Source: a virus
Strand: one strand, 5' to 3'
Virus record (IMG/VR): IMGVR_UViG_3300025128_000443
Span: 1-20,470 of that record
DNA length: 20,470 nucleotides
Shown: positions 1 to 20,470 of the stretch, one piece after another
Layout of the letters: every line of letters begins with the position of its first letter
Numbering within the stretch: position 1 is the stretch's first letter
Made by a program: the position numbers and the translations under genes
The notes under the pieces: model-generated
Told to the model about the DNA's origin: nothing
Seen by the model: the letters and a program-made list of their open reading frames with translations, nothing else
Database searches by the model: none

Positions 1-795
1 AGGTGTAGGCTTATGTGCCCTGAAGATACAGAGGGATCTAAAAGACCTTCAGTAATAAAGGGTGAGAAGGCGACCAAGATAATAGCATGGAAACCAATAA
101 CAAATGAAGATCTAAATACAGGAAAAACACATGAGATTTTCATTCCAATAGTGTGGAATGTATTCAATTCAGAACAAATAGACTGGAAAGAGTTCCCTCA
201 AGAGCAGTTCAAAGAGACAGGCGGGAAAACATATGATACAAATAAAGAAACAGATGAAGTAAAAATTATACATGATTTTATAAATGCGTATCTTAATGAA
301 TACAAAATTGATTTCTATACTAAAGGACAAGAGGCTTACTATAGTCCATCCCATGATCATATATACCTACCAGATATAAAGTATTTTAAAAACGGTATTG
401 GATATGCTGCAACAGCGGCGCATGAAACAGTACACAGTACCGGACACTCCACGAGACTCAAAAGAATAAAGAAAGGACACGGAAGAGATAAAGAAAAATA
501 CTCTCAAGAAGAGCTTGTCGCTGAAATGGGAGCGGCTGCTATCATGGCAGAGCTAGGACTCGTAGACATAAAAAACAATAAGAACACCATAGAATATCTC
601 CGAGGCTGGAGCAGTATACTTAAAGATAAGAAGGATTGGCTTATCTATGCAGGGCAACGAGCAGGAAAAGCGTTAGACATGATCAAGAAATCACTAGAGA
701 AAGCAACAAAAGCAGGGAAAGATTACAGCATTACTTCTATTGCTGAGTCTAAAAAAATAGTTCAAAAATTAACGGAGAAATTAAATGACAAGTGA
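1..795 (+). CDS. ArdC-like antirestriction / zincin metallopeptidase protein, 5'-partial
   Basis: The frame is open from the first base of the window, so the gene almost certainly begins upstream; the ATG at 13 is probably internal. The N-terminal stretch KGEKATKIIAWKP matches the end of the ArdC N-terminal (DUF1738-type) domain, whose earlier part would lie outside the window. The C-terminal half is a zincin-like metallopeptidase. Counting from the ATG at 13, HETVH spans residues 137-141 with another His at 145, and SQEELVAE at about 165-171 supplies the downstream acidic ligand. A conserved GWSSILK...A...A helix region follows. In ArdC of plasmid pSA this family protects incoming DNA from restriction, and similar proteins occur in phages as ejected or early products. 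The gene overlaps the next one by 11 bp. The family is clear; the antirestriction role here is inferred. Confidence 0.82.
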   Translation, partial: RCRLMCPEDTEGSKRPSVIKGEKATKIIAWKPITNEDLNTGKTHEIFIPIVWNVFNSEQIDWKEFPQEQFKETGGKTYDTNKETDEVKIIHDFINAYLNEYKIDFYTKGQEAYYSPSHDHIYLPDIKYFKNGIGYAATAAHETVHSTGHSTRLKRIKKGHGRDKEKYSQEELVAEMGAAAIMAELGLVDIKNNKNTIEYLRGWSSILKDKKDWLIYAGQRAGKALDMIKKSLEKATKAGKDYSITSIAESKKIVQKLTEKLNDK

Positions 796-3795: not shown

Positions 3796-4707
3796 ATGGC
3801 TTTAACTGAGAAGCAGAGAACGGCAAGGCAACGATCAGTAGGTGGATCAGATATCCCTGCGATCTTAGGAATATCACCCTTCAAATCTGCTGCCGATGTA
3901 TTCCTTGAGAAGACACACTCAATGGAAAACCAAACAACTGTAGCGATGGAAGCGGGCCACATGCTTGAGCCTGCCGTCATTGACTGGGCAATAAAGAGAA
4001 TAAGTCCTGAATTCACTTGGTCTAGTGTTAATGTAAGACGTACTAAAACATTAGAAAGTTCTAGTGGGATAATTCTACCAGCCCATGCTAATTTAGACTT
4101 CATGTTTACAGCGTGGGTTGATGGAAAGATCGAATCCCGATGTGCTATTGAGGCTAAAACTACTGGTATGCCTCAGTACTGGGGGAAAGAAGGGAGTGAC
4201 GAAGTACCTGATCATGTTCTTGTTCAATGTTTATGGCAAGCATTGGTTGCTAATCTTGATATAGTACACGTTGCTGTATTATTTGGTGATCGAGGATTTA
4301 CTTTAAAGATGTATGAAATAAAAACAACTGAATACGAAGAACAAACAAAGGAGATCATTGATAGGGTAGCAGAATTCTGGAATAAAAATGTCATGGAAGG
4401 AGTTGCACCAACAGAGACAGCCCCTAAAATAGACACGATCAAGAAGGTGATTCGTGTCCCCAAGAAAAGTGTGGAGATGCCTGATATAATGGTTCAGTCT
4501 TGGTTGACTGCCAAAGAGGAACTTTCTACAGCTAGACGCAAAGAAGCAGAACTTAAAGCAAAAATACTTTCAAATCTTTCAGACGCAGAAGAAGGTAAAG
4601 CTGCCAGTGGTACTGTAACTTACTACAAATATGACCGTAGAGAATACACGGTACCTACTACGAGTTATAGACAAATGAAATGGTGCCCCAGAAAGGACAA
4701 ACCATGA
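3796..4707 (+). CDS. YqaJ-like (lambda exonuclease family) recombination nuclease
   Basis: A 303-residue protein of the YqaJ/lambda-exonuclease group (PD-(D/E)XK fold), which resects double-stranded ends to expose single strands for an annealing protein. The motifs occur in the expected order: GGSDIPAILG at residues 16-25, GHMLEP at 54-59 (Glu58), a metal-ligand Asp101 in ANLDFMF, the E-x-K core Glu119/Lys121 in AIEAKTTG, and Gln144 in LVQCLWQALV. The key residues appear intact. The C-terminal 100 residues (AEFWNKNV onward) are helical and lysine-rich, usual for this family in phages. The stop codon overlaps the recT start (ATGA), the classic exonuclease/annealase pair, implying coupled translation and a working complex. 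Confidence 0.92.
   Translation: MALTEKQRTARQRSVGGSDIPAILGISPFKSAADVFLEKTHSMENQTTVAMEAGHMLEPAVIDWAIKRISPEFTWSSVNVRRTKTLESSSGIILPAHANLDFMFTAWVDGKIESRCAIEAKTTGMPQYWGKEGSDEVPDHVLVQCLWQALVANLDIVHVAVLFGDRGFTLKMYEIKTTEYEEQTKEIIDRVAEFWNKNVMEGVAPTETAPKIDTIKKVIRVPKKSVEMPDIMVQSWLTAKEELSTARRKEAELKAKILSNLSDAEEGKAASGTVTYYKYDRREYTVPTTSYRQMKWCPRKDKP
4692..4697 (+). promoter_or_regulatory. ribosome-binding site that sets the recT start
   Basis: AAAGGA lies 6 bases before the ATG at 4704, which overlaps the exonuclease stop as ATGA. This favours 4704 over the in-frame ATG at 4680, which has no comparable site. Confidence 0.6.
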
Positions 4708-5783
4708 CGGAATCTTCTGTCCCGGTTACAATTGAAACATGGTTGGAATCTAAAAGAGATGAGTTGTTCGGCTTACTGCCCAGCAATATCCATAAAGAAA
4801 GATTCCTCCGTAACATTATCATGCAAATCAAAATGAATGAGAACTTAAAGAACTGCTCAATCACTTCGATAGCCAAGGCTTGCGTCCAGGCTAGTACATT
4901 GGGCCTTGATATCGGAGTGTTAGGATCTGCCTATCTTGTACCTTATGGTAACGAAGCCCAGCTATCTGTCGGGTATCAGGGATACATAGATCTGGCCTAC
5001 AGATCAGGTATGAAAGCACTACATACTGGTATCGTCCGGGAGCTTGATTCCTATAAGGCTACTCATGAAGACTTTAAACATGAGTATGATCCCTTTGGTA
5101 CTGAAGAAGAGCGTGGCCCTGTAGTGGGCGTGTATGCCCTTATAGTCCTCCCGACTGGTACGTCCTACTCCGAGCTCATGTCTGTCTCTGAGATCGATCA
5201 GATCAGGCGTGGGAGCCGTTCAGCCAACTCACCAGCATGGCGTGACCACTGGGGAGAAATGGCTAAGAAGGTAGTGATTCGTAGAGCGTTGAAGAGAGCT
5301 CCAATGTCCACTGAGACCAAGGAGATTATCCAGAGCAGTGACAATGCAGAGTTTGGCTTTAACACACCTTCTAAGCCACTGGGTAAAGAAGGACTGATGA
5401 GCTCCCTGGAGGCCACCAAACCAACCATTGAAGCGAATACAATCAGCAAAGAGCTAAGTTCAGTCTGGGATAAACATAAAGAGTACGCCAATAAACTTGC
5501 CAATATTCTTGTTGTGCCTAAATGGAACAAGATTTCGAACCTTCGCCAGTCTCTATTGATCCGAAGAATAAAAGCAGAATCCTTCACGATTGATCAGGTT
5601 GAAGAATTCTGGAATCAAACATTAGATATCTTTAATTTACAAGAAGATAGCTGGAAATCGACAATGCCTGAGCCTCATACCCTGGAAGAATACTTAAAAT
5701 TCCCAGCAGACGAAGGCTATGACTACTACGAAGCAGCGAGCCGACACCTTCTTGAAGCAACAAAAGAAAAAAGTAAAGACTAA
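4704..5783 (+). CDS. recT: RecT-family single-strand annealing protein with C-terminal extension
   Basis: A 359-residue RecT-type recombinase that anneals single strands produced by the neighbouring exonuclease. Family landmarks are LGLDIGVLGSAYLVPYG (from residue 66), the VGYQGYIDLAYRSG core (from about 89), and WRDHWGEMAKKVVIRRALK (from 179). The first 215 or so residues cover the usual RecT core. About 140 extra residues follow, against a typical total of about 270. Part of this tail (VPKWNKISNLRQSLLIRRI through QVEEFWNQTL and DSWKSTMP) resembles the C-terminal domain of phage replication proteins; this is a pattern match only. The gene is richer in G+C than its neighbours (34 of 60 bases at 5161-5220). 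The ATG at 4704 is chosen from the ATGA overlap and AAAGGA site. Confidence 0.9.
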   Translation: MTESSVPVTIETWLESKRDELFGLLPSNIHKERFLRNIIMQIKMNENLKNCSITSIAKACVQASTLGLDIGVLGSAYLVPYGNEAQLSVGYQGYIDLAYRSGMKALHTGIVRELDSYKATHEDFKHEYDPFGTEEERGPVVGVYALIVLPTGTSYSELMSVSEIDQIRRGSRSANSPAWRDHWGEMAKKVVIRRALKRAPMSTETKEIIQSSDNAEFGFNTPSKPLGKEGLMSSLEATKPTIEANTISKELSSVWDKHKEYANKLANILVVPKWNKISNLRQSLLIRRIKAESFTIDQVEEFWNQTLDIFNLQEDSWKSTMPEPHTLEEYLKFPADEGYDYYEAASRHLLEATKEKSKD

Positions 5784-6286: not shown

Positions 6287-6469
6287 TTACTTATTACTTA
6301 GACCATTATCATGGATAGCACGACCTAGAATGTAGGCCATGAGACCCTCTGCGGTAAGCGTAACCTGATCGCCTGTCAACCCGACCCGATCACCAAGAAG
6401 AACTACAAAGACAAGGAGCAAGAGCCCCTGTGCCTTACGACTAGCAAAAATATCTTGAATAAAACTCAT
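6287..6469 (-). CDS. holin-like small membrane protein
   Basis: A 60-residue protein with an N-terminal basic patch (ASRKAQ), a hydrophobic segment at about residues 13-26 (GLLLLVFVVLLGDR), and a second moderately hydrophobic helix at about 40-52 (GLMAYILGRAIHD). This SRK-TM-GD-x-A-Y-I-x-G layout is common in small phage membrane proteins annotated as holins or of unknown function. It starts with an ATGA overlap on the preceding lipoprotein gene, and AAGGAAGA lies just upstream. It ends exactly where the rightward operon ends. A holin or antiholin role in membrane permeabilisation is inferred from size, topology and context. Confidence 0.6.
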   Translation of the reverse strand: MSFIQDIFASRKAQGLLLLVFVVLLGDRVGLTGDQVTLTAEGLMAYILGRAIHDNGLSNK

Positions 6470-6717
6470 TCTTCTTTTCCTTTTCTAGTAGCAGCGGACC
6501 ATCCTGTAACACCAGAGATCAAAGCAATCAAGATCTCCTTCCAAGGTGAAGGAAAGAAATCTACACTATCAACAACAGCATAACCAGCAACCTCACCAAC
6601 AGACTCAACTGTAACTGTTGCTGATGACTCTCCTCCAGATAACCCCCTTGTAAATCCATCCCAGAATGCACAACCTGAAAGAGTAACAACCAACACTGCA
6701 ATGAAAACAATTCTCAT
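6466..6717 (-). CDS. lipoprotein with C-terminal hydrophobic segment (spanin candidate)
   Basis: An 83-residue protein beginning with a lipoprotein signal peptide: MR, a hydrophobic core, and the lipobox LSGC with Cys at residue 16. Ala follows the Cys, consistent with outer-membrane sorting. A short Ser/Gly/Val-rich linker follows. Near the C-terminus is a second hydrophobic stretch (WKEILIALISGVTGW, about residues 59-73) ended by the basic RKGK. A lipid anchor plus a C-terminal membrane segment with basic inner end is the layout of unimolecular spanins, which join outer and inner membranes in the last step of lysis; this one is short for that class. It could instead be an o-spanin paired with the upstream gene. 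ATGA overlaps occur on both sides. Confidence 0.6.
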   Translation of the reverse strand: MRIVFIAVLVVTLSGCAFWDGFTRGLSGGESSATVTVESVGEVAGYAVVDSVDFFPSPWKEILIALISGVTGWSAATRKGKEE

Positions 6718-7019
6718 TTTTTCCTACAATCTTGGACAGCATCCTTTATCTGCTGCCTCGTTTCTGTGACATCATACTGTATTTTATGCAGTACGTTTGT
6801 CATGGTTTGTGTGTTTTGATTTATTGTATGGGTAAGTTTTTTAATAGATTCTGATAAACTTATTAAACTTTTCTCGACCTCTGTCCAGCGTTTGATGTCG
6901 GTGTACTTCACGCCGTTACTATCTACCTTTCTATCTCTCACGAAAGAAAATACTTCCCTGAGAATCAGTAATACTAACGCCGTGGATGCTAACCCGGTTT
7001 CGAAAATAGGCAAGTCCAT
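6714..7019 (-). CDS. TM plus coiled-coil protein, probable lysis-cassette member
   Basis: A 101-residue protein with one N-terminal transmembrane segment (about residues 7-25, TGLASTALVLLILREVFSFV), a basic stretch RDRK, then a charged helical region (residues 40-98) with heptad-like spacing. The ATG at 7019 overlaps the stop of the giant gene (TAATG) and has GGAG just upstream; a longer frame from 7118 would run inside that gene and is not favoured. Place and size suggest an i-spanin or a holin accessory. However, the basic residues after the TM argue for a cytoplasmic C-terminus, which is opposite to Rz-type i-spanins. The function is unresolved. Confidence 0.55.
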   Translation of the reverse strand: MDLPIFETGLASTALVLLILREVFSFVRDRKVDSNGVKYTDIKRWTEVEKSLISLSESIKKLTHTINQNTQTMTNVLHKIQYDVTETRQQIKDAVQDCRKK

Positions 7020-10000
7020 TATTCTCCAGCCATTCTTTGTTGGATAGTTTTGAAACCAGAAGGAGATTCTCCTTTGGCAAAGTAATTTCCTTCTCCCATT
7101 AGAGTTGTATCTATCCAACTAGGTGCAACATCGAAAAGGAGTTTTGTCCAGATAAGATTCTGTGCTGGAATCATTCTTCTTAAAGCACTGAGCTCCCCGA
7201 CTGTAGGTTCTAAAGGATGCTTTAATGTTCTTAATGATTCAATAGCACTGAAGACACCACCAACTGTAGGGCCACCAACCAAGTCAACAGCAGACCTAGC
7301 CTTATATTTAGTATCTAAATTTCCAGCAAGCAAACTATGGAAACCGAAACCAAATATTCTTTCAAAGGTATTCTGTGCTTCAAATAGTAATGCAAACATT
7401 CCTGCTCTATCCATACCCTGCGTTAACATTACTCTTGACCAATGGACTTCATCAACATTGCCGTCGTCATCAGTAACCTTTTTGTTTTCAAAAGGATTGA
7501 TACCTTTCATAGTTTCATAGATTGCATAAGACATAGATCCCAGTAATGCAGTCATAAGAACTTGCATGGCTTGATTGGGATCTTTATACAGCACTCCACG
7601 TTGAACAAACGGAAGAAATGTCATATCAAATGAAGCAGATAGGAAAGATTTAAACTGCCAGAAGTGATTAAGATAAGGATTAGATGTCCATTTAGGATTA
7701 CTACCAGCACCAGGAGTCACAATAATTGAATCTACTGTACCCTTTATGCGAGCCTGATAATTAAAAGCAAACAAATCATCAGTCCATCTTTCTGATTGTG
7801 CTAAGTAAAACTCTCTACCAAATATTGAATCCTTCTTGCCACCAAAACGCTCATGCATTTGACCAATACGAATCAGGTCACTCTCACCGAAGCCCATTGA
7901 CTGAGCAATGCCACGGTCCCGCTCGCTGATTTCCCTTGGTTTGCCCCCACCATTCCATCTGGCAATGCCCAATTCAGCAACCATATCTTCAACACCCAGA
8001 GTTACGATTCTCTTTTGGAATCCATTCCACTTGTTCAACATATGCCCGATATTAAACGCACCCATTAGTTTGCTATCTGAGTTTGTCCATCTGTCTATCG
8101 TTTTAAGTTTGCCTTGAGGACTTGTATCAACTCTTTGTTGAGTGATTGGATCATAAACATCCTGTTCGAAATCCAAGCCACCGTATTTGTTCGCACGATT
8201 CTCCAAAGAAGCAACCTCAAAAGCATCATTAAGCCTAGAGAAATGACTTAGGTTCTTCCTGTCGGGTGTACCCAGGTACGTCCACATAGTCCTGACATAC
8301 CGAGCCATACCAAGTGTACCAATAGCATTACCAAGATCAGACAACGAGGCAATCGTCACCATGCCCATGTAACGCATGAAGTTCAAGTTCTTTAGAATGC
8401 TAATAGCAGTCTGGACTCCATGCTGATCACCTGCCCATACGTTCCTGTTGAGCAATTGGTTGTAAATGTATGTGATATCCTTCTTTACTTCTTCGAATTC
8501 TTTTTTGCTACCCACTTGATTTGGATCTTCAAGATTTCTTTTAGCTTCCGATATCACTTGAGCAGGATCAGTAGCAAAGTAGGCAGCATTCTTTCTTGAT
8601 CTTTCAATTCTGAGCATGGCATATTCATACTCACTCATATAATTCTTACGTTCAACTACTCTATCTATCCTATCTGCCCCAATAATCAATCGGCGATAAG
8701 GATTGTACTTGAGTCTTCTTCTTTCAAATAAACTATTTGTAGAACTGAAACCAATAAAGTTAGAAGGTGAATCACCCTCCTTCATATTATCTATATGATC
8801 CTTAGCAAGATGTTCCCACCCACTATACTTGTGAGTCTTTATAGTTATATCTTTGGCAATTCCATTTAGGTTGTCTGTTAGCTTGGAGAATGTAGCCTCT
8901 TTATCTTTGAACTTTTTATAAGCCTTCAGTGTTTTGTCGTTCATCTCTCTAGCTCGGCTCTGATTTTCAATAGAGGGATCTGTACCTCTCCCTCTCATCA
9001 ATTCTTTCATGTCGTCTATTTCTTTTACAATCAATTCATTTAATTCTCCAAGTCTTTTCTTTGCCAGAGCCTCCCGTCTAGCTTCATGTTCTTTAATTCT
9101 TTCTTTGAACATGACCATCTCCCCCTTGCCGGGGACTATTGGAGGAACGTTAGTCTGTTTAATTGCATCATGTAATTTATTTAATTCTTTAATTGCTTGT
9201 GGTGTTAACTTAGTTCTATCCCAATCAAATGATTTTATTTCTGTCTTCCCACCTTCGGTAGATACAACCATATCCGAGCGGGTTCCTGCCACTCTTTCTT
9301 TATTTATTGCTAGTAATGATTTCTCTTTTATTTCTACAGGATTAATCCAGAGGAATTTATCTTTGATTTGTAAGTAGGTTCCCTCTCTGCCAGTTTCTTC
9401 TTCGAACTTGATTACTTCCCCTTCAGAATTCTTTGCTGTCTTGACTTTCTTTATTGATCCCTTACCAGTAGCACCACTCAGTATATGAACATAGAGTTTA
9501 CCTTTTTTGTTTATTCGGTATTCCCAATCAATCTTACTAGCTTGCTTCTTTGAGAACTCTGAGAGGGCATAGGATTCTTTTCCAGGTTCAGCTTTCTTAT
9601 ATGTTATCTGTTCATATTGACTAAATCTTTTTCCGGCAGTCCAGTTATCTTTCGCTGATTTTGTATCATAACCTTCTAGTCTCGCCCATTCAGTAGGGGT
9701 TATCGTGTTTGCTTTTCTTTTCCCAGTGACAATAACATTTACTTCCCCCCCCTTCCCATTTGTAAAGGTTATCATATCACCAATGTTTATATTTTCTAAT
9801 TGTCCTGGATTTCTGCTTGTTGCTGTTCTTTCCCCAGCCAAGATTGCATCAAATGTATTTTTAGATTTAACATTCTTACCAGCAGGTAGCGCACCTCCCC
9901 GTCCATAAACAAATGTCATTGGTAAACTTGCTTTTGGTTTAGTAGGTGTTGCGGTTGCCCCTCTTGGTTTATATATAATGCGTTCACCCTTGGCACTTAC

Positions 10001-12598
10001 TGGGGTGAAGTCCTGACCCTTTAATACTGTATCGTAATTGAGTTCCCTCGATGGCACTCCATATATATCACCGTATAAAATAGCATTGCGTTGATAGGAC
10101 AATGACAGAAATCGTGTACCTTCTATCCACATTCCCGCTTCATCTAAATGATGAATATCCCATGTAGACATTTGGAAATCGCCGAGTGCTTCATCTTGTT
10201 CAGATCGGATCCGTTCACGAGAGCTTACCGTCTCATGAATCCAATCATTTATATCTTCAATTGTTTCAAATATTTCAGAACGACCTGCATCCTTTTCCGC
10301 CTGTGTTATTGGTCTTTTTATTTGGTGTCCGGTATCGCCTTCTGTTCTGTTTGTATCAATGAGCCTTAGCTGTGTTGTTACATCTGATTCATCAGCAAGA
10401 TCTATAGCTCTATCTTTTGCCTTTCCCCAGAGTTTCAAATCATTCCATTCTTTATTTTCTCCGTCGGCATTTTCTAATTTCTTTTTCAATTTCTCAATAT
10501 GAGCAGCAGCATTTTTCAATCTCAGTGTAAGATTAAACTTCTCAAAGTTATCAATCTGCTTTGTTGCCATTACAATTTGCGGAATCAAATGCGTTTGCAT
10601 CTGCTTGCGTATTACAATTATGTTCTTCTCCATTAGAGGAGCAAGGAACCTATCATCTATGAATACCTTACGAGACATTAATTCTTTTGCGCTACTGGTA
10701 TGTACTGCTCCACCATGCGCTTGGCTATCTATTCTCCTGTACTGGTGATCAAGTCGTTGTGCTGTAGTAAGTCTTGCTTTTTCCCAGTCGTCACCTGTTT
10801 TTGAGAAGTCTTCTAGCATATCATATGCAGCATCACGCCTTTCTTTTGCAACTGCCATCTCCCATTCTGCTTCTCTTTTTACACTCCGACTGGTAGTACC
10901 TTTTAATTTTCTTTCTGCAAGAGCAATAGCCTCATCTTGCTCACGAACTATCGCACCAAACAAATCCAAGTTAGCTTGCTTACCATGCTCAAGTCCGTCC
11001 TCTAAACCCTTTATAACCAGACTCGTACCGTCTGTAGCAACAGCAAGATCAGCCCTCTCGTGGTTCACAAAGCGAGGTAGGTGTGCTGTTTGGTCTATGG
11101 TCTTCTTAACAATATGAAGTAGATCTGATTGCTTTGTAGTGAATCCAGCATCGTCCAGGGCTTCCTTAATAATTTTCCCTGTCAGCCTACTCTCTGCTGT
11201 CATAGCCTCAATTGTTTTTACAGTTTCGGGATCATTCCTTATAGCAAGGAAGGGATCTTGATATTCAAACCCATGAGATTCCTCTGAAGGAGAGACCCTA
11301 AATGTATCATCAACTTCAGCAATGGTGCGCTTGCCAGTGATATATAAATCACCAACTAATCTATACAAATCATCGTCAGGCAGCTTCTTCTCTAGAGTTG
11401 TTTCAACTTCTTTACTGTTATATTTCTTTTTCATATCTACTAATACTTTGTTACTCATAGTTAATCTTTGTTGAACAACCGCTAGTACTTCCTCAACAGC
11501 AGAGTCACCCAATCCTATCTCTCGAACCAGATTGTTTCTTAATAACATTACCCCGATTGATTTCACATTGTCATTAGGGTGTGTAAGTATTCTTTGAGTG
11601 GGATTAAGAACAAGCCAGTTGGCTAGGTACTTACCAAATTTGTTATCTTTTGCTATGCCAAGGATTACAGAAGAACCCTCTTTGACTTCTTCCATTGCTC
11701 TACCTAAGTAAGTACTCTCCTTAGTGAAATCACTAGGCATTGGAATTAACTTAGGATTCTTTATACGATCAAAGACTGCTGCGGCTTCAGGATCTTCCGC
11801 TATCTGTCTATTCATGCTTTTACTTAATGCATCTGCATGAAGTTCTACAAAATCCTCTGGAGTCTTCCCACCAAGTATCTTCTTTGTTGTACCAATCTTT
11901 GCCTTATTCACCCCCTTCTTTATCACAGCACCCACACCCGGCATTATCCCACCTAGCAGCATTGAACCAATCATGTCCGCTGTAGTGTGGGCGGATGTCC
12001 TAGTTAAATCGTGGTCCCTCATAAGAGGTTCTACTACTCCAGTAAGAACTAGATTCTCCAAGGAGTTCAACGCCATTCTTGTCTTAACTAATTTCGCAGT
12101 TGCTCTTGTCATTCCACCAGCCTTGAAGAGAGGGCCAGCAAAAGGAATAAAGTTTACAGGATCAAACAAGGCAGCAGGTATAGCAGCGAATATATTTCCG
12201 ACCAGGCCACCCTCTTGGAGAGTCATGTTTACGGAATGATTCTCTATGATTCGGTTAATCTTACGAGCAGATGAAAGAGTACTGGTAGATTCTTGAATAC
12301 TGTCCCAAGATTGAGGATAGAAATCTTTTATCCATTCATTTTCAAGTACATAGTTATCCGCTGAAGGAGTGTAACCTGCTTCTATATACCCCCATGCATT
12401 TGGGTCTTCACCAAATAAAGAACCATTAGCCAACCTTAAAGTATTAAAGTTCCATGCCATTGTCCCAATACGAGTAAACCAATTAGAACCCTTGGGATCT
12501 ACAGGAGCACCGGGTATTGGAGAATCCATAAAGGCAATTCTCTCACCCGGAGTCATGTGTCGAAGGGCTTTAACCGTACCAGAAGAAAGATCAATCAT
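7019..12598 (-). CDS. giant internal virion protein (T7 gp16-like position) with embedded ASCH domain
   Basis: A protein of about 1859 residues, in the slot of T7 gp16 (1318 residues). Such proteins are packaged in the head and ejected to help form the DNA channel across the envelope. The N-terminal part has the hydrophobic stretch GLVGNIFAAIPAALFDPVNF near residues 131-150 and another Gly/Met-rich segment near 200-225. The middle is charged and coiled-coil-rich and contains an ASCH/PUA-like domain at about 909-1000. The C-terminal 500 residues are rich in aromatic helices and end with LRRMIPAQNLIW and GNYFAKGE, a style typical of podoviral ejection proteins. No lytic transglycosylase motif was recognised. 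The ATG at 12598 overlaps the upstream stop by 8 bases and is preferred to the TTG at 12619. Confidence 0.82.
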   Translation of the reverse strand: MIDLSSGTVKALRHMTPGERIAFMDSPIPGAPVDPKGSNWFTRIGTMAWNFNTLRLANGSLFGEDPNAWGYIEAGYTPSADNYVLENEWIKDFYPQSWDSIQESTSTLSSARKINRIIENHSVNMTLQEGGLVGNIFAAIPAALFDPVNFIPFAGPLFKAGGMTRATAKLVKTRMALNSLENLVLTGVVEPLMRDHDLTRTSAHTTADMIGSMLLGGIMPGVGAVIKKGVNKAKIGTTKKILGGKTPEDFVELHADALSKSMNRQIAEDPEAAAVFDRIKNPKLIPMPSDFTKESTYLGRAMEEVKEGSSVILGIAKDNKFGKYLANWLVLNPTQRILTHPNDNVKSIGVMLLRNNLVREIGLGDSAVEEVLAVVQQRLTMSNKVLVDMKKKYNSKEVETTLEKKLPDDDLYRLVGDLYITGKRTIAEVDDTFRVSPSEESHGFEYQDPFLAIRNDPETVKTIEAMTAESRLTGKIIKEALDDAGFTTKQSDLLHIVKKTIDQTAHLPRFVNHERADLAVATDGTSLVIKGLEDGLEHGKQANLDLFGAIVREQDEAIALAERKLKGTTSRSVKREAEWEMAVAKERRDAAYDMLEDFSKTGDDWEKARLTTAQRLDHQYRRIDSQAHGGAVHTSSAKELMSRKVFIDDRFLAPLMEKNIIVIRKQMQTHLIPQIVMATKQIDNFEKFNLTLRLKNAAAHIEKLKKKLENADGENKEWNDLKLWGKAKDRAIDLADESDVTTQLRLIDTNRTEGDTGHQIKRPITQAEKDAGRSEIFETIEDINDWIHETVSSRERIRSEQDEALGDFQMSTWDIHHLDEAGMWIEGTRFLSLSYQRNAILYGDIYGVPSRELNYDTVLKGQDFTPVSAKGERIIYKPRGATATPTKPKASLPMTFVYGRGGALPAGKNVKSKNTFDAILAGERTATSRNPGQLENINIGDMITFTNGKGGEVNVIVTGKRKANTITPTEWARLEGYDTKSAKDNWTAGKRFSQYEQITYKKAEPGKESYALSEFSKKQASKIDWEYRINKKGKLYVHILSGATGKGSIKKVKTAKNSEGEVIKFEEETGREGTYLQIKDKFLWINPVEIKEKSLLAINKERVAGTRSDMVVSTEGGKTEIKSFDWDRTKLTPQAIKELNKLHDAIKQTNVPPIVPGKGEMVMFKERIKEHEARREALAKKRLGELNELIVKEIDDMKELMRGRGTDPSIENQSRAREMNDKTLKAYKKFKDKEATFSKLTDNLNGIAKDITIKTHKYSGWEHLAKDHIDNMKEGDSPSNFIGFSSTNSLFERRRLKYNPYRRLIIGADRIDRVVERKNYMSEYEYAMLRIERSRKNAAYFATDPAQVISEAKRNLEDPNQVGSKKEFEEVKKDITYIYNQLLNRNVWAGDQHGVQTAISILKNLNFMRYMGMVTIASLSDLGNAIGTLGMARYVRTMWTYLGTPDRKNLSHFSRLNDAFEVASLENRANKYGGLDFEQDVYDPITQQRVDTSPQGKLKTIDRWTNSDSKLMGAFNIGHMLNKWNGFQKRIVTLGVEDMVAELGIARWNGGGKPREISERDRGIAQSMGFGESDLIRIGQMHERFGGKKDSIFGREFYLAQSERWTDDLFAFNYQARIKGTVDSIIVTPGAGSNPKWTSNPYLNHFWQFKSFLSASFDMTFLPFVQRGVLYKDPNQAMQVLMTALLGSMSYAIYETMKGINPFENKKVTDDDGNVDEVHWSRVMLTQGMDRAGMFALLFEAQNTFERIFGFGFHSLLAGNLDTKYKARSAVDLVGGPTVGGVFSAIESLRTLKHPLEPTVGELSALRRMIPAQNLIWTKLLFDVAPSWIDTTLMGEGNYFAKGESPSGFKTIQQRMAGE
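9599..9874 (-). other. ASCH/PUA-like domain inside the giant virion protein
   Basis: This part of the reading frame encodes NVKSKNTFDAILAGERTATS, a short loop, INIGDMITFTNGKGGEVNVI and then PTEWARLEGY followed by QYEQITY. The F-x-x-I-x-x-G-[E/K]-[R/K]-T-x-T-x-R signature, the G-D-x-I-x-F strand, and the W-x-x-x-E-G segment are the hallmarks of ASCH-superfamily beta-barrels. ASCH domains bind RNA or modified nucleosides in characterised members. Domain assignment is by eye and fairly strong; its activity here is unknown. Confidence 0.7.
9745..9752. repeat. 8-base poly-C/poly-G tract in coding sequence
   Basis: Eight consecutive C on the plus strand (G in the mRNA) lie within the ASCH-coding part of the giant gene, encoding part of Lys-Gly-Gly-Glu. 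The frame is intact at eight bases. A run this long is out of place in this AT-rich genome and could slip during replication or sequencing. Confidence 0.6.
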
Positions 12599-15500
12599 TA
12601 CCCGACCCCTTCTTACCAACTAAAGACCAAAGGAACTTAGAGAACCTGCTATCTGACATTGCAAAGACAAGATACTCATCATCTTCATGGAATAGATCCA
12701 TACTTGCAGCTCTCACCAAATCAAATAATTCAATAGGAGTAGAAGAGTACTCATCACTGAAAGCGTAAATACTTTTAATTAGTTTTGATTTCGGTATAGG
12801 CTTGAAATCATTCTGCCTATAGAGCTCTCTGAGATTAAACCATGGTCCTTCAGCCTCATTAAAATCAATTGGTTCTTTTATTCTATCAGCAATTGCATCA
12901 TTGCTAAAAAATGCGGGGAGTTGTTTAGTGCCCCCAACCAATTCGAAGTAGTGCCTGTTAGGATTCTTCTTATCTCCCACTGGAGACATAGTACCATTCA
13001 GCTCGGGTCGGTTTTTTCTTTCTTCGATGATACTTAAGACTTCCTCTATTACTTTATGATCATTTCCCTGTGTAGAAACAGGAATTTCTATACCCATTTC
13101 TACAGAAGAAACCACTCTCTTGATAATACTATCTGTAGTAAAAGATCCATAATAAAGATCTTCAGTCTTGAACTTTGTTGTTCCTTCTCTTATCTCTTTT
13201 AACAGTGCTCCTCTATCGAAAGAAGTTGAAGGTTTACGTTCTCTACCTTCGCCGACTTTATTAACTCTTTCGTCAAGGAATTTTTCTCTTGCACGATTGT
13301 AAGCAATTGCTACATCTTTTTCACTCCATATAGAAACTGGTCTTTCATTGTCAGACCATACTGTATTTCCAACAATTGATCGTTGTGATTCTATTCGAGC
13401 CTTGTTTTCTTCTGCTATATTCCTAACTTCTTTTTCGAAATATGGTCTAGTAACAGGGTTCCCAATAAACGAAGGCTGACTTACTTTGTCTTGATAATTT
13501 GCAACAAGTTGTTTAAGAACCACAAGTCTATCTTCATCAGGAAGGTCATTGAATCCTTTTAGTTCAGTGATGCTAGATAACGATTCTTCGCTAAGAGGAT
13601 TAGGATCTCCTGTTCCAGAGATAAGGAAATCTTCAATAACCTGGATCTGTTGAGGTACAGGAAGACCCGCATAGTATCCTGTATTATCTGTAGCAAGGAT
13701 ATCCCCAATATGGTACTTACCAGCCTCTAGTATATCTCCATTAGAAAGGTTCTCGGGTCGTGCTGTAGCAATCCTCATTACTTCATCTGCATCGGCCACT
13801 TCATCTGAATGGATTTTATATACAATAGCCTGATTGAAATTGAAATAAATCGGGTTGCCTGATCTATCTCTAGCAACCTTAAGTACATCATTCTCCATTA
13901 TTCCTATTTGATAAGTGCCACCACTCATTGGGATAAGTTTACCATTTGCAGCCAGCTTGTTAATCCATCTCAATGGTGTAGCCTTTTGAGTATCAGGAAG
14001 TTCAACATCAGTAAGAACATCTCTTATAAGATCAGGTACATTAGGATTTAATTTAATAGATTCATTCTTGGAATTCTTAATGGTTAAGTCTTGTGGACGT
14101 ATTAACCATATCTTTACTTTATCTCCTCTGTCATCTACAACCATAGATGCCTTTAGATTATTAATAGCTGGATTGTAAACCATACCAAATGCTTCCTGGT
14201 CGGTTACAGTCTTATCTTTCAATGTTAAGCTCTTGGCTAAATATCCAAATTGCTTTGATAGTGCATTCGCTATTGTTTGTTTATCTTCTTCGCTAGGTTC
14301 TTTGAAACTTTTCGATTCGGTGAGTGGTAGTGCCCAACGCATTGCTCGATCTTTTGCCGCCCCAGTCTTCCTTGATCCTTCGGACCACCAAGAAGCACTG
14401 GGTAGCAATTCAGTCCATTGTTCTGGACCCCAACCATTTACCATTGCCTTAACTTGACTCGAATACTCGGCTGTATCAGTAAAATAACCAGAGCCATCAA
14501 TCTCTACCTCAGCAGTTGTAGAAAACTCAGCAGGGTTTACCACTTCTTCACTAGAAGCATTTATTAAAGCCGCCGTTGGATTCCTAGTTCCAAGATTAAA
14601 TTCAGTAAGGAAGTTCTTTAGTTTTGTTTTATACTCTTTACTTATACCCTCTACTTCTAGATTGTTCTGGATATAAAGTTCTGCAACTTTCGCAAAATGA
14701 TTCCACTCTTGGCCCTCATGGGTATTCGTCTTCAAGTAGTTAGAAAGTATCTTCCCAAACCTAGGAGGTACTTCAATACTATTGTTTAATGTACTGTAAG
14801 TTGAGAACCATCTCCAAATACCCTCTCCTTTAATATTATTATAAGAACCTGAAGCAAAAAGAGACTTATCTATCTGATCAATACCTGCTTTACCTATATC
14901 TTTATCCGATAATGCTTCTAATTCTCGATGGAAATCTTCTTCGGTTATAGCATCCTGAGCTGATATTGCTTCAGCAGCAGTACTACTCATTTTATTATCA
15001 GCAGTTCTTTTGTCATAAGCAAACTGTATGTGAGGTTTTAAATCTTCTGGTGCTAAAAGTTTTAATTCTTCAAGCATTTCAAATTGTTCTGGGGTAGTAG
15101 CTTGCATTGAGTTAATAATGGATTCGCTTGAGGATTTAGCAGTGGAACCCCCTGCCGAAGAGGTACCAGATAGATTCCCGACAACTACATCAAGTGTATT
15201 CCTTAAGGCGGGTGTTGACTCCCCCATAACTCCACTAACAATATCTAAAGAAAGTTCTAGTTGACCTTCAGTGCTTCTCGGATAGGAAGAAACCCAAAGC
15301 CTTCTTGCCTCGTTAGTCCTAGACCGTGCTTTTGATATTAGTTCTGGATCATTTAATTCTTCAGATGCCCTATCTCCTACAAAGACTGCTTGTTTTATTA
15401 AATTCGAACCTTCGCCAGCAGATACCTGCTGGAGGCCGTCCTCGATCATTTGAAGAAGCTCTTTATAGAAGTAGTTATCTCTTTCTATTCTTTCTACAGC

Positions 15501-15965: not shown

Positions 15966-16472
15966 TTACCTTAACTCATACGGAGACTTTTTGGAGATTC
16001 CGCTTTGATAGGTGAAACTTGTAGTGGGATCATACGCTGTTGGGTTGCTACCAAATCCCTTATACTTTGCAGGTGCTGTTCCATAACCAAGAGCAGCCTC
16101 CCCAACATTCAAAACCATACCAAGATCCGCTTCTTTGATAGAAGTCCTCCTTGACTGTCTTGCTTCTTTGATTGCTGAGTCTTCCCACTGCAATATTCGT
16201 TCTCTTCTCATTCCGTATTTGTCTTGTTCGTTTTCGGTAACAGAACCTACCGAACTGCTACCCATCCTCATTCCAGTTGCACCAACATTACCAAGAATGT
16301 CACCTATTAATGTCTGTGTTTCCAAAAGGAGATCCTCCTGGAGCGCACCAGAACGCTGTCTGATATTCTTTTTGGCTGCCCTGTAAGCTCTCTTGGCTGC
16401 TTTCTTTTTACCATAGCCGCCAATGATGCTACCTATTGTTTGTAATGCAAACGCTGTTTCTGCTAACACCAT
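15966..16472 (-). CDS. small internal virion protein (T7 gp14-like position)
   Basis: A 168-residue protein. The N-terminus has a hydrophobic/Gly stretch (FALQTIGSIIGGYG, residues 8-21) followed by a very basic helix (KKKAAKRAYRAAKKNIRQR), a charged middle, and a Ser/Thr/Tyr-rich C-terminus. T7 gp14 (196 residues) has a similar size and place and is thought to insert into the outer membrane during ejection. The ATG at 16472 lies 1 base after the tail-tube-B stop, with GGAG at a good distance, and is preferred to the in-frame ATG at 16523, which would lie within the previous gene. Confidence 0.75.
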   Translation of the reverse strand: MVLAETAFALQTIGSIIGGYGKKKAAKRAYRAAKKNIRQRSGALQEDLLLETQTLIGDILGNVGATGMRMGSSSVGSVTENEQDKYGMRRERILQWEDSAIKEARQSRRTSIKEADLGMVLNVGEAALGYGTAPAKYKGFGSNPTAYDPTTSFTYQSGISKKSPYELR

Positions 16473-16473
16473 G

Positions 16474-19400
16474 TTAATCTCCAAAATCATATTCGGCGTT
16501 ATAGCCGCTAACTTCAAAACCATACGGTGCGCTTTGAGTTATGTTTATTGTAGGTTGGGATCCGAATTCACCAACAACGGGAACAGAATAGAAACCAGAA
16601 GCCTCTGGGATTACTGCGTATGTAGGTATATCAGGGACAGCCAATATATCGTAACCTGCTGCCTTGGCACCCCTAGCCTGATTAAAAAGAATCCTTAACC
16701 TACTTATATTTTTATTCCTACCAAGCGTAGATCCCTTACCAGGAACCATAAGTTCAGGAATATTAGGAGCCAACGTCATAGCATAAGGATAACCAACAAC
16801 CACCTTCGTTGGAGCATCTTCAAAGGTATGCCCAAAGGCCACGCTTGTACCAGAAACAGTAATATCGCCAATATAAACTTCGTCACCACTGTCGAGAGTT
16901 AATATCACTGAAACTGATTTAGTATCAAAGGAAACAGGAACAGTACAACCACTCGTAGTAATAGAAGTACCATCAACAGCACCATCTACATGGTAATTAT
17001 CTCTAGTATCATCAGAAGTAATCAAGACAGCGTTCGATGCAGAAGTTTTTACCCATAATGCTGGATTACCAGAAGAATCTGAGGTTGCAACAATGTCTTT
17101 AATGGCTGTATATTCTGGATTGCTCCACTCATTCCACCCAAATACTGCATTACCTTCATTTATAGTTAAACAATAGAGTTTCCCAGCAGTAGTAAGAGCA
17201 AAAAGTCTCTGTGTGGAAGTACCAATTACTTCAACTCTCTTTATTGTATCATTTTTTGTTAAATGTCTGGCGAATTGAAGTAGATCTCTACTCTCAAATC
17301 TATTCCCACGCTCTGAGAAGTTCATCCCTCGTACTGTTTTGCCATCTGCTTGCACATATACGATCATACTACCAAATGAAACGGAATTAGCACCAGCTCT
17401 TCCACCATATTCAGATTGAATAGATATATTTATAGAAGTTGGTGTAATTGGAGTGTCAGTTATTACAAATTCTTCTTCTTCTGAACCAAGAAAGAGTGTA
17501 TTGAATTGACTTTTTACCCATCGGATCATGCCACCCTTCTTTGAAGAGATCTGGAAGGAGATGCCATCGTCAGATGAAGCATCGCCTGGATCAAAGTTGG
17601 TAGTAGATCCAGTCTTGCTCATGAATACAGTAAGACCTAAATTCTGAGCAGATGGTAAGAACCTAAGACTACTACCAGCAATATCAGAATTCAATCCAGC
17701 AATAACAACTCTCTCCTGGTGGACTGTAACTCTTTCAGGGATAACTATAACATTGGGAGTTTCACCTTCTGGAGCAATTGGATCTATTGCCTGACCAGTC
17801 AATTTCCAATAAGCAGAAGGTCCAGGACTAGCAGTTGAAGAAGAAGTGATATTATTTTCACCACTTATTTCATCTGCACCAACACGGAACACCGTAGAAT
17901 CCTCTATAGGATTAGTATCTCCAACAACCCTTGTATGTCTAACGGTATTGGTAAAAGAAGTTGTAGCAGTAACAAGGGCACCAGGGACAAAAGTTGGTTT
18001 GTAACTTGTAATATCTGTAGAAACACCAGGACAACCAACCATTCCTACACGTTGAACATCGTCCGACCCACTACGAACTAAAAGCTCTGGTAGCCATCCT
18101 TCTTTAGATGCTGACCTTCCATCTGAAAACAGTTTTGCATCTGTTACTATTGTGGGTTGTGCTTCACTAGAAGCCAACTCCATAATCAATACGTTTTCAT
18201 ATGTACAATCATTATCAGTAGGTGATGATGCGCCCACTAAAGGATTACCCATTACAGGACAAATATAAACGGGGTTACTTCCAGAACCAGAAGTAGTTCC
18301 ATTACTTAAATATTTATCTACAACATAAAACCATGTAGTTCTATAAAGTATTCCATCTCTGTAATGTTTGAATCTTCCAACCTGCCCTAGATCTAATCCT
18401 TTTGTATGATCGGACTCCCAATCAGCACTAACGCCAGAATCAAGAGTAACCACTTCTCCCAAGGCAACTGCATTCCAAGTTGCATCTTCGATCATGCCTG
18501 TAACAGTACTAGCACTTGTCTTTAAAGCCTTGCCTACCTGTGTCCAGTTTTTATAGGGACCAACCCAATCACTCGATGGGCTGTCATATACAAGATCATC
18601 TCTTTGTACTTGAGTCTGGAATAAACTAAGATCACTAAAATGTTCTCTACCTAAATCATACCAGGCACCATCATCTGGATCTTGATTCGAGTATCCTCTA
18701 AATTCAAAGGTATATCTTGTATCTTGTGTTCCACTAATTGTAACTGTCGCCCCGGCTTCAGTTTTTAATTCTATTACATTAGTCCCAGCATCATACAATC
18801 TAACTATATCACCATCATTTATAGTTGGAGAGAAAGATAAAGTATCTGCCCCATTAAAATTTATCTTTGCAAAAACAGGCAGAGAAGGAGAACTCAATGT
18901 CAGACCGGTAGTATTTAATTCAGTACTACTTGGTAAGGCCCCTCCATCTATGTATCCTAATTTTCCATATTCCTCAAAGACATCCACTCTTGTCTCACTA
19001 ATAACATTTGGAATATAACTAAAAAACGGAATATTCTTTGTGTCATCTTCTGTGCCAGTATAATTCGGTTGTCTTATTTTCCAAATTGAATCAGTAAAGA
19101 GGGTTGGTATATCTTTCCACTCATCTGGAACGGTAGTAGTTGATGACATTGGTACCAAATTGTAATCTTGATCATCTCGTTTATTCCAAAATGGAGCATT
19201 TGAAATAAACTTGTACTGCCTATTTACAACTTCTCCAGATTCAATAGTTATAGAAACTGGAGGAGTGCTAGTTATCAAGTCAGCATTAATACGATCAAGT
19301 TTCCTTCTAGTAATTCCGTATGAGTTATCTAATTCCTTGCTAAATGTATGGATATACAATCCATCTCTAGTAAGTAAGATTAATTCATTGCCAGTACTTG

Positions 19401-19728
19401 CTGCGTCTTTTAATTCAATACCTTCAGGAACTTCTGGAGAAGTATATAAAACAGTACCATTTTGAGTAATGGTATATTTAGTAACATCTCCTAGCACAAG
19501 AAACGTATCACCGTATCCATTAATGAATTCAAAGGCTTTATCTGCTATCGCCCCAGGAGACGCTGTATCAAAGATTGAACCCCACCGCTTCTCAGCAGAC
19601 CCAGTATCAGACAATAGAGCATTAGAGAGCGTCCTACAGCCCCTCTGGTACTGCTGAGACTCATACTGTGCCCTGAGATTAGGGTCGATTTCTCCGAAAC
19701 CAAAGGATTGTTGTGCTATATAAACCAT
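16474..19728 (-). CDS. tail tubular protein B / nozzle (T7 gp12-like)
   Basis: A 1084-residue protein starting MVYIAQQSFGFGEIDPNLRA, then QQYQRGCRTLSNALLSDTGSAEKR, which matches the well-known opening of T7 gp12-type nozzle proteins (G-E-[I/V]-x-P ... GC-R-T-L-x-N). Gp12 forms the beta-rich hexameric nozzle at the end of the short tail. The body is rich in Ser, Thr, Gly and Val, as expected for beta-propeller/barrel domains. It is longer than T7 gp12 (794 residues), and the extra length could carry added surface domains in the middle. The TAATG overlap with the upstream gene and AGGA at a good spacing support the start. Confidence 0.88.
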   Translation of the reverse strand: MVYIAQQSFGFGEIDPNLRAQYESQQYQRGCRTLSNALLSDTGSAEKRWGSIFDTASPGAIADKAFEFINGYGDTFLVLGDVTKYTITQNGTVLYTSPEVPEGIELKDAASTGNELILLTRDGLYIHTFSKELDNSYGITRRKLDRINADLITSTPPVSITIESGEVVNRQYKFISNAPFWNKRDDQDYNLVPMSSTTTVPDEWKDIPTLFTDSIWKIRQPNYTGTEDDTKNIPFFSYIPNVISETRVDVFEEYGKLGYIDGGALPSSTELNTTGLTLSSPSLPVFAKINFNGADTLSFSPTINDGDIVRLYDAGTNVIELKTEAGATVTISGTQDTRYTFEFRGYSNQDPDDGAWYDLGREHFSDLSLFQTQVQRDDLVYDSPSSDWVGPYKNWTQVGKALKTSASTVTGMIEDATWNAVALGEVVTLDSGVSADWESDHTKGLDLGQVGRFKHYRDGILYRTTWFYVVDKYLSNGTTSGSGSNPVYICPVMGNPLVGASSPTDNDCTYENVLIMELASSEAQPTIVTDAKLFSDGRSASKEGWLPELLVRSGSDDVQRVGMVGCPGVSTDITSYKPTFVPGALVTATTSFTNTVRHTRVVGDTNPIEDSTVFRVGADEISGENNITSSSTASPGPSAYWKLTGQAIDPIAPEGETPNVIVIPERVTVHQERVVIAGLNSDIAGSSLRFLPSAQNLGLTVFMSKTGSTTNFDPGDASSDDGISFQISSKKGGMIRWVKSQFNTLFLGSEEEEFVITDTPITPTSINISIQSEYGGRAGANSVSFGSMIVYVQADGKTVRGMNFSERGNRFESRDLLQFARHLTKNDTIKRVEVIGTSTQRLFALTTAGKLYCLTINEGNAVFGWNEWSNPEYTAIKDIVATSDSSGNPALWVKTSASNAVLITSDDTRDNYHVDGAVDGTSITTSGCTVPVSFDTKSVSVILTLDSGDEVYIGDITVSGTSVAFGHTFEDAPTKVVVGYPYAMTLAPNIPELMVPGKGSTLGRNKNISRLRILFNQARGAKAAGYDILAVPDIPTYAVIPEASGFYSVPVVGEFGSQPTINITQSAPYGFEVSGYNAEYDFGD

Positions 19729-20375
19729 TAGTATCCTAAAGATCTAACGCCCAAGAGGCTGGTATTACCAAACATCTGCGGCGTACCCTCCTGACCGTCT
19801 ACGCCCTTTGCCGCCAAAATAGCATCTTTAGCCATACCTTCAAGTTGTGCTATCTCACTTGTAGATTTCCCGAAATTCGTTGCTACATAGACTGCTAAAG
19901 AAATCCCCATAGCATGTTGAGTTAACGGTCCCAGCAAGTCAAGATTACTACCTACGTCAAACGCATATTCTATAGTTGCAGAACTTTGATTTGTAAGCAA
20001 GGTTCTATGATTAACTGAAGAAATACTAAGGATCTCGATTTCCCATAGATTTGTATAGATATTAGGATTGCCACCAATGTGGTCTGGCCTATTCTCTAAT
20101 CCATTTAATCGCCAAACTCTCAATACATCACTAGGTAATTGAAATGCCTTATCCCAACGATCCAGAACACAATTCTCAGTAGCATCTGTACTGAAAGCAG
20201 TAAGACAGGCAGTCTTCTTTGCCCCATTCCACATATGGTCCGCTAAGAATTGTTGTCTGAATAAAGGGAATATGTTTGAAAGTAATGTTTGCTGGGGATT
20301 ACTTCCTTCTGTTGTAGTAAGGGTGCTAATCCCCAGAGTATTTAATGCCGTATTCCATACATCTAAAATTGCCAA
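19728..20375 (-). CDS. tail tubular protein A (T7 gp11-like adaptor)
   Basis: A 215-residue protein. LDVWNTALNTLGISTLTTTEG followed by LFPLFRQQFLADHMWNGAKK fits the N-terminal helices of gp11-type gatekeeper/adaptor proteins that ring the portal and join it to the nozzle. The W-x-x-x-F-Q-L-P-S-D-x-L-R-x-W segment near residue 75-90 is also typical. The start used is a TTG at 20375, which has a strong ACGGAGGT site 7 bases upstream (20383-20390). The same frame stays open to the right edge of the window, so a longer N-terminus starting outside cannot be excluded. Confidence 0.85.
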   Translation of the reverse strand: MAILDVWNTALNTLGISTLTTTEGSNPQQTLLSNIFPLFRQQFLADHMWNGAKKTACLTAFSTDATENCVLDRWDKAFQLPSDVLRVWRLNGLENRPDHIGGNPNIYTNLWEIEILSISSVNHRTLLTNQSSATIEYAFDVGSNLDLLGPLTQHAMGISLAVYVATNFGKSTSEIAQLEGMAKDAILAAKGVDGQEGTPQMFGNTSLLGVRSLGY

Positions 20376-20470
20376 GGCTTGTACCTCCGTTAAAAGTTCT
20401 GAGGAAACCGTACCAATTCCTGGAATCGTTAGGTCTAGTCCTCTAGTTGTTGCTGTAGAAACAGAATCAC
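20376..20470 (-). other. right edge: leader of tail tube A or end of an upstream gene
   Basis: In the tail-tube-A frame the 95 bases to the edge are open (31 codons, ending with LLTEVQA before the TTG). The other two leftward frames hold stops, a TAG at 20437-20435 and a TGA at 20469-20467, either of which could end the preceding gene. It cannot be resolved from this window. No promoter or hairpin was noticed. Confidence 0.35.
20383..20390 (-). promoter_or_regulatory. strong ribosome-binding site before tail tube A
   Basis: Read leftward, ACGGAGGT at 20390-20383 lies 7 bases before the TTG at 20375. It is the longest anti-16S match noticed at the start of a leftward gene and argues for the rare TTG start. 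The bases also read as Thr-Glu-Val in the open upstream frame, so coincidence is possible. Confidence 0.5.

Follow-up and report, generated by a model that had tools for sequence, protein, structure and literature searches.

The window, the whole 20,470-base stretch of DNA analyzed here, is IMG/VR record IMGVR_UViG_3300025128_000443, and the phage is known only from this fragment of ~20 kb. The gp16-like gene is the last of a gp11-12-14-15-16 block arranged in T7-like order (Table 1), as assigned from PHROG and Pfam matches, with the gp15 slot assigned by position. Pfam and PHROG scans gave no family match for the gp15-position protein. The probable start of the gp16-like gene is the ATG at 12598, which yields 1859 amino acids and is equivalent to the ATG at which the protein of a close relative, L006 (IMGVR_UViG_3300031800_000008), begins. 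This agrees with the length of ~1859 residues given in a preliminary description of this DNA.

Table 1. Features of the virion gene block and of the gp16-like protein (positions in the window; residues numbered in the gp16-like protein)
Feature	Position	Strand	Basis or remark
gp16-like internal virion/ejection protein	7019..12619	-	ORF; 1866 aa from TTG 12619
gp16 C-terminal region, residues 1354-1828	7136..8560	-	phrog_342 E 4.1e-42
ASCH cassette, residues about 887-1012	9584..9961	-	missing in frame from L006 (protein and DNA alignment)
ASCH domain core, residues 901-1007	9599..9919	-	alignments, AlphaFold2 model, Foldseek PDB
WARLEG motif, residues 978-983	9671..9688	-	E982 invariant in 15/15 members covering it
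ASCH octapeptide GERTATSR, residues 929-936	9812..9835	-	fits GxKxx[ETS]xR except Lys to Arg
Other cassette slot, residue ~573, empty in the window	10900..10903	-	ART-like modules or others fill it in L054-L057
Hydrophobic hairpin, residues 118-230	11930..12268	-	aligned with T7 gp16 305-400
gp15-position protein, 1121 aa	12591..15956	-	gene order only
gp14-like internal virion protein	15966..16523	-	PF24072 T7_gp14 E 1.7e-4, under its cut-off
Nozzle / tail tubular protein B-like (gp12 position)	16474..19728	-	phrog_376 E 3.4e-50; PF25675 Phage_nozzle 7.8e-5
Tail tubular protein A-like (gp11 position), truncated by window end	19728..20468	-	phrog_394 E 5.9e-24

On the strand opposite the virion genes, positions 1-795 (+) match phrog_7245, an 'anti-restriction protein' (2e-42), and positions 3796-5783 (+) encode a RecE-like exonuclease and a RecT-like annealing protein (phrog_434, phrog_148), a recombination pair that co-occurs in this phage with T7-type virion genes. 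Past the gp16-like gene, at 6287-7118 (-), lie three small ORFs with hydrophobic stretches, one of them lipoprotein-like. These ORFs are possible candidates for lysis genes; two were scanned for families, and neither matched.

Homology to T7 gp16 is found in two blocks that are colinear with the T7 protein. The C-terminal block matches a PHROG family labeled 'internal virion protein with endolysin domain', and residues 1569-1832 align with T7 gp16 1023-1307 (HHalign probability 97%, E 2e-11). At the hairpin, HHalign pairs residues 118-168 with T7 gp16 305-353 (E 3.3e-4), a BLAST comparison of L006 with T7 gp16 extends the match to T7 311-400 (E 0.002), and hydropathy peaks in both the window protein and T7 gp16. 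Together with the gene order, this homology bears out the T7 gp16 position that had been proposed for the protein, which on these comparisons is very probably a divergent T7 gp16 homolog. There are also clear differences. The window protein is longer (1866 versus 1318 aa) and has ~700 extra residues from the hairpin to the C-terminal match, ASCH included. It starts ~120 residues before the hairpin and shows no Pfam match to the N-terminal transglycosylase end, which is present in T7 gp16 and absent in P22-like proteins.

The ASCH domain and its motif residues

The preliminary description had placed an ASCH domain, a fold that acts on RNA or on modified nucleosides, at positions 9599-9874. A plus-strand reading of this interval was rejected, as it contains in-frame stops and is meaningless; the coding strand is the minus strand, on which the interval encodes the ASCH core within the gp16-like ORF. 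All of the motifs cited earlier are present there: TFDAILAGERTATSR, which holds the octapeptide, GDMITF, and EWARLEG, which holds W978 and E982.

Neither Pfam nor NCBIfam reports ASCH in the window protein or in the isolated segment, and thus the single sequence fails the profile test that the preliminary description itself had suggested. PDB sequence searches, by segment or by family profile, returned only noise, and a search for related loci seeded with the single window segment found none, whereas an alignment-seeded search succeeded. Homologs identified by tblastn are located in the crAss-like phages cr272_1 (9e-7) and cr114_1 (2e-3) and in two stand-alone plasmid proteins of 116-125 aa. 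Alignment-based scans recovered 10 IMG/VR loci and 11 genome loci with this ASCH subfamily, and the subfamily alignment has 18 members (the window and 17 relatives). At the family level, profiles point toward ASCH. Half of the members (9/18) individually match Pfam ASCH (PF04266), with a best E value of 4.8e-4 that does not reach the Pfam cut-off. Moreover, an HHalign comparison of the subfamily with 13 bona fide ASCH sequences from genomes scores 29.9; the highest score among 150 column-shuffled alignments is 15.3, and the reversed alignment scores 10.1.

An AlphaFold2 model of the window domain, built from a 17-row alignment, has a pLDDT of 88.5 and a pTM of 0.81. When this model is compared to the PDB by Foldseek, hits 1-7 are all ASCH or PUA-like ASCH proteins. 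The top match is E. coli YqfB, with and without ac4C (1.7e-5, probability 1.00), followed by PH0355, L. crispatus ASCH, and PF0455, with ZmASCH at rank 10. Among viral structures, the best match is the cr272_1 giant protein (4.3e-9). A model of residues 780-1130 made from a two-sequence alignment had a pLDDT of 33 and was not used. Structure prediction, also proposed at the outset as a check, therefore returns a PUA-like ASCH fold, and on the combined evidence of family alignments and the model, the feature is almost certainly a genuine ASCH domain.

The ASCH octapeptide has the consensus G-x-K-x-x-[ETS]-x-R (PMC9599836). In all 17-18 subfamily members, the window included (Arg931), the Lys is replaced by Arg. 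The 18-member alignment reveals that G-[EQ]-R-x-x-T-x-[RQ] is invariant or near-invariant, as is a W-[SA]-x-x-E-G motif. For YqfB, alanine mutants of Lys21 (K21A), Thr24, and Arg26 are inactive, and Glu74 is used as well (PMC6972931). The counterparts of the first three residues in the window are Arg931, Thr934, and Arg936, and it is possible that E982 is equivalent to Glu74. The YqfB arrangement of a Lys21-Thr24-Glu74 triad plus Arg26 is thus incomplete, with Arg931 in place of the lysine.

These residues weaken the parallel that had been drawn with YqfB and its action on N4-acetylcytidine. If the domain were a YqfB-like amidohydrolase that deacetylates this modification in host nucleosides or tRNA, then the top rank of YqfB among PDB matches and the correspondence of Thr934, Arg936, and possibly Glu982 would be readily explained. 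But the essential Lys21, whose mutation to alanine abolishes activity, is Arg in every member, and YqfB-type deacetylation is therefore most improbable. We dropped this reading on account of the Lys-to-Arg change. The sequence pattern makes it more likely that the subfamily is involved in binding or in some other reaction.

With a branch of 3.67, the window copy diverges more than any other member, and this long branch prevented its placement in a tree of the subfamily. It lacks one Arg and one Trp that 16 of the 17 aligned members, all but the window copy, have kept. Given this divergence and the loss of two otherwise kept residues, the window copy may have drifted or become inactive. Despite the long branch, it retains the octapeptide, WxxxEG, and the Q and Y of the domain. 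Compared to the ASCH superfamily (PF04266; YqfB, ZmASCH, PH0355), the domain is similar in its predicted fold, in the octapeptide pattern Gx[K/R]xxTxR, and in a WxxxEG motif that stands where other ASCH proteins have an EGEGD / QEN motif. It is distinguished by the octapeptide Arg, by falling short of the Pfam cut-off, and by its embedding in a virion protein.

Cassettes in gp16-like proteins and the wider ASCH subfamily

The ASCH domain is carried by an in-frame cassette of ~123-126 aa. The L006 protein is 81% identical over its length, and the domain is missing from it exactly. Where the window reads IIYKPR/GATATP...AEPGKESYALSEF, the empty site in L006 reads IIYKPR/KGKGEQPYAISEF, and the DNA on each side of the cassette is 81-83% identical to that of L006. 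No ASCH was found elsewhere in the 34.7 kb L006 record, and a search for further close relatives of the whole protein returned L006 only. The survey of gp16-slot proteins proposed in the preliminary description was carried out with 80 gp16-like IMG/VR loci, including the contig of L006 (L051). ASCH is present in none of the 80 proteins, and in no six-frame ORF of these loci. Because none of them carries ASCH, the simpler reading of the sequences is that the cassette was gained in the window lineage, although all lacking relatives except L006 are unalignable across the site. The preliminary description missed this clean presence/absence cassette, as well as the crAss-like giants and the exchanged cassettes in gp16 relatives that are described below.

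A slot distinct from that of the ASCH cassette holds ART-like cassettes in other gp16-like proteins. In L054, L055/L056, and L057, the DNA is 97-99% identical on either side of one point, and yet the inserts differ. L054 has two modules, one of which is DUF3990-like (5.5e-5, under its cut-off), L055/L056 have a DUF3990-like module alone (4e-5), and the insert of L057 is unrelated to these. DUF3990 belongs to the ADP-ribosyltransferase clan. The point of insertion is proline-rich and lies near residue 555 of these proteins. L058, another gp16-like relative, has an ART-PolyVal match over the cut-off (2.4e-7). Since near-identical L054-L057 hold different inserts at one point, these sequences indicate that gp16-like ejection proteins swap effector-like modules at a minimum of one slot. 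The L054-L057 slot looks to be a hypervariable effector slot.

The same ASCH subfamily occurs in giant proteins that are homologous to crAss001 gp50 (E 3e-11 to 3e-66). These include L007 (3e-11), L008 (3e-66), cr114 gp021 (1e-22), and cr272 gp23 (3e-18), as well as L013, L014, L016, and L025, and the ASCH giant of L011 matches crAss001 gp49 (6e-7). The crAss001 proteins gp47, gp49, and gp50 have been found in virions by mass spectrometry (PMC10172136). Furthermore, the L016 giant matches phrog_16227 'virion structural protein' (5.8e-147), and also Flavobacterium phage structural proteins, where the match ends at the point at which ASCH begins. ASCH is on the N-terminal side in L008 and past the gp50-like region in most other giants, and these differing places in the chains argue that it moved more than once. 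No ASCH was found by tblastn in crAss001 itself.

Several subfamily members are fused to NADAR (L001/cr272_1, 4.6e-8; L014, 1.2e-12; L022, 2e-22; weakly in L025), and L023 is fused to Macro (5.7e-8). Other fused neighbors are DprA/SLOG-like and DUF1848. According to a published report, NADAR enzymes undo guanine ADP-ribosylation (PMC11125620). This collection of fusion partners suggests that the ASCH subfamily may be linked to ADP-ribose or NAD chemistry.

In L014, L025, and L002/L050 (the cr114_1 giant), ASCH is apparently circularly permuted, such that the WSxxEGWS helix and the last strand precede the N-terminal half. By BLAST, L013 1428-1476 corresponds to cr114 4075-4125, upstream of the segment (4127-4202) that corresponds to L013 1356-1431. 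L022, a Rhodovibrio protein with NADAR, and L013, a phage giant, share ~35% identity over ~280 residues covering ASCH and the upstream portion (L013 1169-1449, L022 60-393), which is possibly a SLOG-ASCH module. Stand-alone members reside on alphaproteobacterial plasmids or contigs (L017-L021, L024, L003; Microvirga, Sphingosinicella). The stand-alone gene of L004 has an AAA ATPase directly 3′ and a metallophosphatase nearby, and that of L024 has a HAD_SAK_2 protein directly 3′; no conserved partner gene beside the stand-alone copies was established.

Proposed function and relation to known systems

The T7 gp16 residues that follow the hairpin (411-1118) have been modeled as a cytoplasmic hub (PMC8954989). 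ASCH is located C-terminal to the hairpin in the corresponding stretch, and thus it can fairly be inferred that the domain is delivered to the cytoplasm. By analogy to T7, it is likely that the protein as a whole is packaged and ejected in the manner of gp16, and there is a reasonable likelihood that its ASCH segment reaches the cytoplasmic side.

Our favored explanation, which we consider fairly probable, is that the Arg-type ASCH domain is an exchangeable cassette in a T7 gp16-like ejection protein and serves as an effector delivered with the DNA. The domain is probably a pre-loaded effector, since it is precisely missing from a close relative and recurs in crAss-like virion RNA polymerases. 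If this is true, ASCH would be packaged in the virion as part of the gp16-like protein, which would be extruded partly unfolded, with the post-hairpin part entering the cytoplasm alongside the first DNA. There ASCH would refold and bind or alter a nucleotide, modified nucleoside, or nucleic acid ahead of phage gene expression, most likely for counter-defence or host takeover. The balance tips toward a conflict effector over structural filler, and the 'simply structural' role that had been offered as one option is less likely. The chances that the ligand is a nucleotide or modified nucleoside are about even.

Other explanations also can account for parts of the data. ASCH could belong to the ejectosome as a passive component or as one that handles DNA, helping gp16-C to grip or read the phage's own, possibly modified, DNA during entry, with no target in the host. 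T7 gp16-C binds DNA in the cytoplasm (PMC8954989), and ASCH has been proposed as a modified-base reader in restriction and BREX settings. However, ASCH is not a core ejection part because an 81%-identical phage manages without it, and the same subfamily is found in unrelated giants and in stand-alone plasmid genes, which leaves this explanation unlikely. We find it more doubtful still that the cassette is neutral or decaying, a mobile domain that recombination brought in and that a flexible linker tolerates. Such an origin would suit the long branch, the two lost residues, and the great variation in length of the host protein, but not the intact ORF, the retained motif residues, the confident predicted fold, or the repeated recruitment of ASCH by virion giants of several lineages. 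That there is no ASCH domain at all, its motif being due to chance or to a chimeric assembly, is extremely unlikely. Although Pfam does not match the window sequence itself, the family-level profile, the shuffle control, and the fold search all speak against chance, and an in-frame insert with a G+C content of 0.394 (flanks, 0.400), both of whose flanks are homologous to one relative, speaks against a chimera.

A broader proposal combines two claims: that gp16-like proteins are a general platform of hypervariable cargo slots through which rotating effectors are delivered ahead of gene expression, and that the targets of the Arg-type ASCH are nucleotides or nucleic acids that are ADP-ribosylated or derived from NAD. 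It draws on the NADAR, Macro, and DprA/SLOG-like fusions and on the ART-like cassettes in sister gp16-like proteins. As a combination it is speculative and rather unlikely, although if it is correct, ASCH would counter NAD-based or DarT-like defences.

If the delivered-effector explanation holds, then exchangeable effectors can be loaded onto the podovirus DNA-ejection machine itself, and the window offers a well-delimited domain, with a naturally empty site as the control, for asking which activity phages send into the cell before gene expression. The presence of ASCH in virion polymerases of crAss-like phages, which are abundant in the gut, hints at one target common to two unrelated delivery machines. 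This idea is open to test using the purified ~110-residue domain.

Injected multidomain effectors are already known as a concept. Searches of the literature for ASCH in ejection proteins found nothing relevant, which does not prove absence elsewhere, and the same outcome was obtained for polyvalent together with ejection proteins and for ART together with internal virion protein. Within the literature searched, two features look new: an ASCH cassette in the ejection protein for which a relative supplies the naturally empty site, and the presence of exchangeable cassettes in gp16-like proteins. One parallel is crAss001 gp50, a virion RNA polymerase cargo that is packaged and for which extrusion into the cell has been proposed. 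Some gp50 homologs carry the same ASCH subfamily, but the scaffold is unrelated to the window gp16-like protein. Polyvalent proteins (Iyer et al. 2017, PMC5512222) likewise are large injected multidomain chains with exchangeable effector domains, and the gp16-like relative L058 carries ART-PolyVal. The main text of that study does not name ASCH, gp16, NADAR, or macro domains. The polyvalent class is characterized by several disparate effector domains in a single large injected chain. One effector-type domain is recognized in the window protein, and related gp16-like proteins carry ART-PolyVal or DUF3990-like modules. With T4 Alt, too, an effector travels in the phage head and enters the cell before expression (PMC5512222), but Alt is a separate ADP-ribosyltransferase protein rather than a cassette within the ejection machine.
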